Made by a program: the position numbers and the translations under genes. 52,134 bases of DNA, taken from assembly GCA_031288715.1 (NCBI GenBank), contig JAITQW010000005.1, forward strand, positions 1 to 52,134, in the 5' to 3' direction. The notes below the pieces were generated by a model, which ran no database searches, was not told where the DNA came from, and was given only the letters and a program-made list of their open reading frames with translations. The DNA is from Lactobacillales bacterium (GTDB lineage Bacteria; Bacillota; Bacilli; Lactobacillales; Streptococcaceae). Below are positions 19,461 through 40,574 of the stretch, piece by piece. How positions within the stretch are numbered: position 1 is the first letter of the stretch; each line of letters opens with the position of its first letter.

Positions 19461-21455
19461 TTGTTTGATACAGTTGATCAATTGGCGGTAAACACAATTA
19501 GAACTTTATCTATGGATATGATTCAGAAGGCAAATTCTGGGCACCCAGGGTTACCTTTAGGTGCATCGCCTATGGCGTATGTTTTGTGGTCTCGTCATTT
19601 AAAAATAAATCCAGCAACCTCAAGAAATTGGACCAATCGAGATCGTTTTGTTCTTTCTGCGGGTCACGGTTCTGCAATGCTATATAGTTTATTACATTTA
19701 TCTGGATTTAAAGTTTCTATGAATGATTTGAAACAGTTTAGACAGTGGAATTCAAAGACGCCTGGGCATCCCGAAGTGAATCATACGGACGGTGTAGAGG
19801 CGACAACAGGACCTTTAGGACAAGGATTTGCGATGGCTGTAGGAATGGCAATGGCAGAAGCGCACTTATCAGCAATTTATAATAAGCCTAATTTTGATAT
19901 TATAAATCACCATACTTATACCTTGGTTGGTGATGGGGATTTAATGGAAGGAGTGTCCGGGGAGGCTGCTTCATTAGCAGGGCATTTGAAGTTGGGGAAA
20001 TTAATCGTTCTTTATGATTCAAATGATATCTCATTGGATGGACCTACTTCAATGTCGTTTACAGAAAACGTAGAGAAACGCTTTTTGGCTTATGGTTGGC
20101 AGTATCTTCTTGTGGAAGATGGGAATGATTTAGAAGCAATTCATCAAGCGATTAATTCTGCAAAAGAAACACAAGATAAACCTACATTAATTGAAGTAAA
20201 AACAGTAATTGGTTTTGGTGCACCAAAACAAGGTACATCAGGTGTTCATGGTGTTCCTCTTGGAGAAGGAGGAATTGCAGCCGCAAAAAAAACTTATGAT
20301 TGGCAATATTCTGAGTTTACAGTTCCTGATGGAGTTATTGATCGATTCAAAGAGAAAATTTTCGATAAAGGAGCAGAAAAAGAAAATTTTTGGAATACTT
20401 TATTTGATGAATATAAAAAGGAATATCCTGAGTTATCCAAGCAATATGAAGAGTCTTGGAATGGTGAATTATCAAAAAATTGGCAAGATTCCCTTCCGAA
20501 ATACGATGTAGGTACAAGTGCTGCTAGTCGTGTGACTTCTAAGGAAACGATTCAAGTGCTTTCTAAGAACTTGCCGAATTTTTTTGGTGGATCTGCTGAC
20601 CTTTCTGCATCGAACAACACAATGGTTGCAGCAGAAAGTGATTTTCAATCTAATAACTATATTGGTCGCAATATTTGGTTTGGTGTGCGTGAATTTGCGA
20701 TGGCTGCAGCGATGAATGGAATTGCGTTGCATGACGGAATATCTGTTTACGGTGGGACATTTTTTGTGTTTTCAAACTATTTATTACCTGCAATTCGTAT
20801 GTCTGCGATTCAGAAGTTACCTGTAACTTATGTGTTGACTCATGATTCGGTTGCTGTAGGAGAAGATGGACCAACGCATGAGCCGATTGAACAGTTGGCA
20901 AGTATACGTTCAATGCCGAATGTACATGTCATTCGCCCAGCGGATGGAAATGAAGTAGTTGCGGCTTGGAAATTAGCGATTACTTCGAAGAGCACGCCGA
21001 CTATTCTTGTTTTAAGTCGTCAAAATTTACCTGTGCTTGAAGGAACGAAAGAGAATGCAAGAGATACAGTTGCTAAGGGAGCTTATGTAATTTCTCCTGC
21101 TAGCAAGGCAGTTCCTGACGGAGTTTTGATTGCAACAGGTTCTGAGGTTTACTTGGCTGTTAAAGCGCAAAAAGTTTTGAGAGAGCAAGGAAAAGACGTG
21201 TTTGTTGTGTCTATGCCGAGCATGGATCTATTTGAAGCGCAATCAGATAATTATAAAGAATCAATTTTTCCTAATGCTGTTCGTAAGCGGATAGCGATTG
21301 AAGCTGCATCAAGCTTTGGCTGGGAGAAATATGTTGGTTTGGATGGGGCAACTGTCACATTGGATCATTTCGGAGCAAGTGCACCAGGAGATGTGATTTT
21401 GGAAAAATTTGGTTTTACAGTTGAAAATATTGTGAAAAAATTTGAGCAATTGTGA
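19461..21455 (+). CDS. tkt: Transketolase
   Basis: A thiamine-diphosphate enzyme of the pentose phosphate pathway that moves two-carbon units between sugar phosphates and supplies erythrose 4-phosphate, a substrate of the DAHP synthases in this window. Length 664 residues. Motifs: [20 protein letters not shown] at the N-terminus, [17 protein letters not shown], ThDP/metal motif GDGDLMEG...YDSND near 150-190, the [17 protein letters not shown] region, and [20 protein letters not shown]. The annotated ATG at 19452 overlaps the AGGAGG site; the TTG at 19461, nine bases after it, gives the [14 protein letters not shown] start typical of the family. Confidence 0.95.
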
Positions 21456-40090: not shown

Positions 40091-40197
40091 TTGGGAATCG
40101 ATTGACAAAGTGGAGCACTAAATTTTGGAATGAAGCAACCAATTGATTGAAATCGGTATGATCATTCGCTATACTAATGGCTGTGACATATGATTTT

Positions 40198-40500
40198 GGT
40201 TCGGTAGCTCAGCTGGATAGAGCAATCGCCTTTAGGCAAAATAGGAGCCTTTATAGGTAAAAGGAATCTATAAAGTGGATAGCACTGTATCGGTGAAACC
40301 TGTAAAATGGCAATACCGAGGAAACCATTTGTAGCTTGGCGAAGAAGTTATTTGGTAGTTGAGCGAGGGATCCGTAGAGACTATACGTGCTACGTCTGAG
40401 ATGACGAAGATATAGTCCAGACCACAAAACGATAATCGGCAGTGAAAACTGTAGTGGTAAGCTAAGCGATCGGTCGGGGGTTCAAATCCCTCCCGAATCA
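40198..40500 (+). tRNA. tRNA-Arg (TCT), interrupted by a group I intron
   Basis: The 5' exon (40198-40232) and 3' exon (40462-40500) join to a 74-nt tRNA. The acceptor GGTTCGG pairs with CCGAATC, and the D-arm is GCTC-GAGC. The anticodon stem ATCGC/GCGAT has loop CTTCTAA (anticodon TCT), and the T-arm is GGGGG-TTCAAAT-CCCTC. The discriminator is A and CCA is not encoded. The boundary T40232/T40233 and G40461/C40462 is the one that gives a seven-base loop, a U at the 5' splice site and a terminal G in the intron. The intron lies between the first and second anticodon bases. A terminator follows at 40545. Confidence 0.9.
40233..40461 (+). ncRNA. Group I intron (229 nt) in tRNA-Arg(UCU)
   Basis: The self-splicing core can be read. 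P2 is TTTATAG/CTATAAA. P3 is TAGCAC/GTGCTA (6 bp, perfect). P4 is CGGT/ACCG, enclosing a short P5 and followed by P6 (CCA/TGG). P7 is ACTATA/TATAGT within GTAGAGACTATACG and AAGATATAGTCC. P8 is CGTC/GACG, and P9 is CAGT-GAAA-ACTG with a GNRA tetraloop. The intron ends in G. The P4-P7 sequence resembles the small tRNA introns of the IC3 subgroup (Azoarcus tRNA-Ile, cyanobacterial tRNA-Leu). I could not settle P1: GCC/GGC pairings exist around the 5' splice site, but a clean G-U pair is not obvious. No homing endonuclease is encoded. Confidence 0.88.
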
Positions 40501-40544
40501 TAATATATAGCTGATTTTGAATAAATCGACTATAAAAATTGAGA

Positions 40545-40574
40545 ACGTCTTAAGGTCTTCTGAGGCGTTTTTTG
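40545..40574 (+). terminator. Terminator after the split tRNA gene
   Basis: CGTCTTA pairs with TGAGGCG, including two G-T pairs, and is followed by six T. It lies 45 bases after the tRNA 3' end. The remaining bases to 40748 hold the leader of the next gene and no other feature. Confidence 0.65.

Follow-up and report, generated by a model that had tools for sequence, protein, structure and literature searches.

The window analysed here, 52,134 nucleotides from the draft genome of a bacterium of the order Lactobacillales, contains a tRNA-Arg(UCU) gene that is split by a group I intron. The locus is confirmed as a real, conserved element, and it very probably represents a functional, single-copy gene into which an IC3-like group I intron, of the kind found in bacterial tRNAs and lacking an endonuclease, is inserted between U34 and C35. 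The gene structure, the fold of the intron, its homology, the empty sites in relatives, the covariation and the complementarity between guide and exons are all shown by the analysis.

A tRNA-Arg(UCU) gene is interrupted within its anticodon

When introns were allowed, ARAGORN reported a tRNA-Arg(tct) with a 229-nt intron lying between gcctt and ctaag. Default ARAGORN and Rfam at its gathering threshold missed this split gene, each run giving only a tRNA-Thr in the window. ARAGORN (option -i) and our own parser placed the 5' exon (positions 1-34, ending in C32-U33-U34) at 40198-40232 and the 3' exon (C35 to the discriminator A73, with no encoded CCA) at 40462-40500; this and all features described below lie on the plus strand unless stated. 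The intron between them (40233-40461) is inserted after U34, that is, between U34 and C35 and inside the anticodon, and ends in the omega-G, G40461. Submitted to ARAGORN as a spliced sequence, the two exons formed a 74-nt tRNA-Arg(UCU) with a standard cloverleaf, the anticodon UCU and no encoded CCA. The sequence-only reading had proposed just such an arrangement, with a group I intron after U34 that ends in G and exons that rebuild a standard 74-nt tRNA. ARAGORN with introns allowed, a full-length, though sub-gathering, alignment to the Rfam model RF00028 and the homologous split genes described below all bear it out.

A promoter-like site (TTGAAA-17-TATACT, 40147-40175; 10 of 12 matches in a consensus scan) ends 22 nt ahead of the tRNA, and a scan also found a terminator-like hairpin with a T run at 40541-40572. 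Consensus matches are weak evidence, and a match to a promoter consensus alone is no proof of function; the two signals would be consistent with a single-gene transcription unit. A reading of the loop as that of tRNA-Lys(UUU) (CTTT|TAA) was rejected. It would put a C at the end of the intron; moreover, the gene is called as Arg by ARAGORN, and every intron-free relative with abutting exons has UCU.

The intron has a covarying group I core

The fold was examined in 48 introns of the same core type as that of the window, aligned with the variable P6 extension cut out. In this set the P2 hairpin (40249-40275, pairing 40249-40256 with 40268-40275) was paired in 98.7% of cells and covaried on both sides at six of its eight pairs. 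The 5' strand of P3, UAGCAC (40280-40285), pairs with GUGCUA at 40387-40392 and is the pseudoknot partner of P7; it was paired in 100% of cells, with both-side changes at 5 of 6 pairs. Its two strands lie about 100 nt apart and interleave with P7, an arrangement that no chance hairpin would give. P7 itself (40379-40385 with 40411-40417, the whole region spanning 40379-40417) was invariant at its outer five pairs, and P8, enclosed within it (40393-40396 with 40403-40406), was paired throughout (100%), with covariation at two of four pairs.

The P4-P6 domain gave a similar picture. P4 (40290-40319, pairing 40290-40294 with 40315-40319) was 98.8% paired and covaried at 2 of 5 pairs, while P6 (40321-40372, pairing 40321-40322 with 40371-40372 at the base of its variable extension) was 99% paired and nearly invariant. 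The register of the short P5 within P4 (40299-40300 with 40309-40310) was placed by eye and is weakly tested; its pairing count of 36% was one base off and so is no test. Finally, P9 (40421-40458, pairing 40421-40425 with 40454-40458) contains inner hairpins, including the GAAA-capped P9b at 40440-40451, which was 99% paired and covaried at all four of its pairs. When the strands were slid as a control, pairing of the covarying helices dropped to 9-50%. The pairing counts over the 48 sequences thus contain both hallmarks of a group I core, the P3-P7 pseudoknot and the P4-P6 domain, and covariation or invariance substantiates each of the helices previously read from the single sequence (P2, P3, P4, P7, P8 and the GAAA-capped P9), with P6 in addition.

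The internal guide sequence matches both sides of the insertion

The hexamer UAGGAG at 40242-40247 forms six of six possible pairs with the anticodon loop. It is complementary to CUU^CUA, three bases on each side of the insertion, with a single U.G wobble. Its GAG forms P1 with C32-U33-U34, which puts the wobble pair U34.G at the 5' splice site, and its UAG forms P10 with C35-U36-A37 of the 3' exon, next to the terminal G of the intron. All 73 introns compared contain GGAG, and 47 of them have the full hexamer; the U34.G pair was found in 48 of 48 sequences, as were C32-G and U33-A. Since the guide is complementary to both sides of the insertion, the intron is tied to the anticodon loop of tRNA-Arg(UCU) in particular. 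P1 had been regarded as the weak point of the model, which proved not to be so, the guide fitting the loop base for base. Alternative versions of P1, built from the first intron bases (a GCC/GGC hairpin) or with a U34.U pair, were dropped in favour of GGAG, which is conserved in all 73 sequences.

From these features, and taking the chemistry from established group I biochemistry, we infer that the gene is transcribed, that splicing is initiated by guanosine, that CCA is added and that the tRNA decodes AGA. The pre-tRNA would be transcribed from its own promoter, and the intron would fold through its P3-P7 pseudoknot and P4-P6 domain, with the guide holding the anticodon loop. A guanosine bound in P7 would attack after U34, at the U.G pair, and the freed 3'-OH of U34 would in turn attack after the terminal G (40461), so that U34 would be joined to C35 and the 229-nt intron released. 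CCA would then be added, and the resulting tRNA would read AGA.

Comparison with known tRNA introns

Group I introns in bacterial tRNA genes are established, according to a review (PMC3984707), and a passage of PMC4853749, citing MacGregor (2013), describes the tRNA-Arg-TCT of Beggiatoa and Thiomargarita as broken by a putative group I intron. The introns of Beggiatoa (BOGUAY) and Candidatus Thiomargarita nelsonii share host tRNA, anticodon and kind of element with ours, in a different phylum, although they are likened here by description only. A literature search, with most subscription papers outside its reach, found no description of a tRNA-Arg(UCU) intron family in the Bacillota. An intron in this host tRNA is known in kind and unusual for the order to which the present bacterium belongs.

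The IC3 intron of cyanobacterial and plastid tRNA-Leu(UAA) resides in another isoacceptor. Like the window intron, it is inserted directly after U34, follows a 5' exon ending in CUU and has an IC3-like core, a P2 and a short P1 whose guide is GAG. In contrast, P10 of the window intron is matched to the CUA of Arg(UCU), and its P6 is GGA/UCC-like rather than GCC/GGU-like. The proteobacterial introns of tRNA-Ile(CAU) (Azoarcus) and tRNA-Arg(CCU) are likewise small IC3 introns that lack an ORF and interrupt an anticodon loop, though of other host tRNAs and at other insertion positions. Their GAGCCAAG-type P6 motif occurs in only 12 of 72 tRNA-Arg(UCU) introns, whereas the core motif of the window intron, GAGGAAAC ... 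UCCGUAGAGACUA, is present in 52 of the 72.

Empty sites, copy number and alternative explanations

Among 98 related genomes, the same split gene was found in one of the same genus (G002, 88% identity) and one of the same family (G013, 76%). In most of the others the matches to the two exons meet with no gap, precisely at query 35|265, so that both splice points are fixed, and ARAGORN identified the abutting neighbours as uninterrupted tRNA-Arg(tct). When the uninterrupted junction was searched for directly, 49 of 59 genomes of the family contained it; G013 did not, nor did any of the five genomes of the window's genus. Neither a split nor an uninterrupted tRNA-Arg(UCU) gene was found in the assemblies of three congeners (G001, G003 and G004). 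A degenerate piece of intron core, running from P4' to P3', was seen in G003 near the end of a contig (L052, contig C32, match 19560-19585), beside YqgX-like hydrolase sequence; this fragment is a relic or an assembly fault. Different genes flank the locus in the window, in G002, in G013 and in the intron-free relatives that were inspected, so there is no synteny here.

An intact tRNA-Arg(UCU) elsewhere, with the present copy degenerate, had been named as one finding that would speak against the proposal. No second such gene was found in the host assembly, a draft that is 88.6% complete, and the other tRNA-Arg genes seen there have CCU and CCG anticodons only. AGA occurs 114 times in 23 ORFs of the window, and at this frequency (10 per 1000 codons) the split gene is probably needed. 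It is nevertheless conceivable that a dead intron sits in a tRNA pseudogene and that AGA is read by an uninterrupted second copy in the missing part of the draft, an idea to which the congeners lacking a detectable copy lend some weight. We regard this as very unlikely: both exons keep a perfect cloverleaf, all diagnostic core elements and both splice signals are intact, and promoter- and terminator-like signals flank the gene. Moreover, the exons of the window and G002 differ by compensated changes in the acceptor stem, a pattern that would be expected under selection.

Removal of the insert by a protein splicing endonuclease, as with archaeal-type bulge-helix-bulge introns, is scarcely credible. 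The anticodon loop is the usual place for such introns, but the site here is 34/35, not 37/38, and the insert of 229 nt contains a guide sequence and a group I core that is conserved and covaries; no bulge-helix-bulge splicing system is known from bacteria. That the draft, in 53 contigs, joined intron and tRNA in a chimera through a sequencing or binning artefact is just as improbable and already contradicted, the same junctions being present in the independent assemblies G002 and G013 and in 69 other database loci.

The introns are widespread and probably largely overlooked

The distribution of the split gene was examined with a scan pattern joining the P7 3' strand to the 3' exon, for which the expected number of matches in shuffled window sequence is 0. 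The pattern is exact, so that the counts are lower bounds. In a collection with one genome per species it matched 102 contigs, and 70 of the 80 loci that were fetched rebuild a full tRNA-Arg(UCU) with an intron after U34. The same site in the same tRNA is occupied in about nine phyla (Bacillota, Bacteroidota, Pseudomonadota, Thermodesulfobacteriota, Myxococcota, Acidobacteriota, Chloroflexota, Cyanobacteriota and Elusimicrobiota). Among the hosts are Exiguobacterium, Lysinibacillus, Domibacillus, Sporosarcina, Priestia, Melghirimyces, Aeromonas, Vibrio, Shewanella, Marinomonas, Desulfobulbus, Niastella, Acidobacteriota, Chloroflexota, Halothece and Elusimicrobia. Closer to the window, the pattern matched 1 of 395 genomes sampled of the order and 25 of 398 sampled of the class; the intron is rare in the host order, where G002 and G013 also carry one, and sporadic in the class. 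The suggestion that a UCU isoacceptor would be an unusual host therefore stands for the Lactobacillales and fails for bacteria at large, among which this host is not unusual.

In a tree of the introns, grouping by host phylum was far above that for shuffled labels (for the Bacillota, 1 change versus 15.6). The three Lactobacillales introns formed one supported group, near other Bacilli introns in the first tree. Long-term persistence in lineages with occasional transfer would fit this pattern better than frequent transfer, a question that 200 alignment columns cannot settle.

We consider it likely that these introns make up a largely unrecognised, widespread family specific to tRNA-Arg(UCU), present in about nine phyla and in predicted phage contigs, and that HNH or PD-(D/E)XK endonucleases make part of it mobile. 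Rfam and tRNA finders at default settings would mostly fail to detect its members, and an essential tRNA would then seem to be absent from many genomes. The host genome and its intron-bearing relatives seem to be without an AGA-reading tRNA because default ARAGORN and thresholded Rfam miss the gene. Group I introns also conceal tRNAs from tRNAscan-SE 2.0, according to its authors (PMC8450103). Anticodon-splitting group I introns are now extended to a Lactobacillales-type lineage, and the tRNA-Arg(UCU) site emerges as a place where they recur in diverse bacteria, their guide sequence fitting the anticodon loop in question.

At relaxed thresholds RF00028 (Intron_gpI) aligned to 40223-40433 over the whole model, with E = 2.5e-6. 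The Infernal search that had been proposed as a check thus gave a full-length match, albeit at 31.6 bits, under the gathering score of 50. The accompanying view that the lack of a significant Intron_gpI score would refute the intron does not hold, since the model is insensitive to this type and a sub-gathering score is no refutation. In a scan of six genomes, this insensitive model reported nothing at E ≤ 1 for the introns of G002 and G013, and only one of seven loci with window-type introns scored at E < 0.01 (40.6 bits), whereas a locus of the other type reached 75.5 bits. These results suggest that a second Rfam model or a divided family is needed for window-type introns. The model was tried against L060, L063, L078, L080, L109, L125, G002 and G013, and most window-type introns were missed.

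Endonucleases and predicted viral contigs

The window intron contains no homing endonuclease; the sole overlapping ORF of 60 aa or more has 77 codons and reads the tRNA region on the minus strand. In contrast, homologous introns with the same site and core type in Exiguobacterium, Lysinibacillus, Bacteroidota and others (L067, L083, L099, L110 and more) are about 600-670 nt long and encode a PD-(D/E)XK endonuclease (PF11645/PDDEXK_5, E 1.6e-36), and others have HNH_3 ORFs. With endonuclease-bearing and endonuclease-free introns at the same position, the gain, decay and transfer of introns can be studied in a tractable system. A different, minus-strand ORF, HNH-type endonuclease-like in its CxxC pairs, was seen in the tRNA-Arg(UCU) introns of L066 and L117 (Fibrisoma); that of L117 had no Pfam match at 0.001.

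According to a 2014 review (PMC3984707), the introns known from phages all lay in protein genes. A strict search of viral contigs for the window intron and a plasmid BLAST found nothing, and in a BLAST against phages the matches, in large and crAss-like phages, covered no more than part of the core. The 3' half of a similar group I intron was seen in a 484-kb uncultured phage (LR756508.1:12215-12304), and another in the dnaB region of a crAss-like phage, with a GIY endonuclease (OQ198718.1:76480-76541). The split tRNA-Arg(UCU) pattern itself occurred in 27 predicted viral contigs (L181-L207), about 20 of which rebuild the whole tRNA. The viral label of these contigs is a prediction; L188 carries pckA- and tilS-like ORFs, and L195 matches a Bacillota chromosome locus. 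The part of the tree with the long viral introns is uninformative, grouping there following the ORF sequence. In the two long viral-contig introns tested (L182 and L201), an HNH_3 ORF begins just after the guide sequence, and other viral-contig introns of 593-654 nt have similar ORFs.
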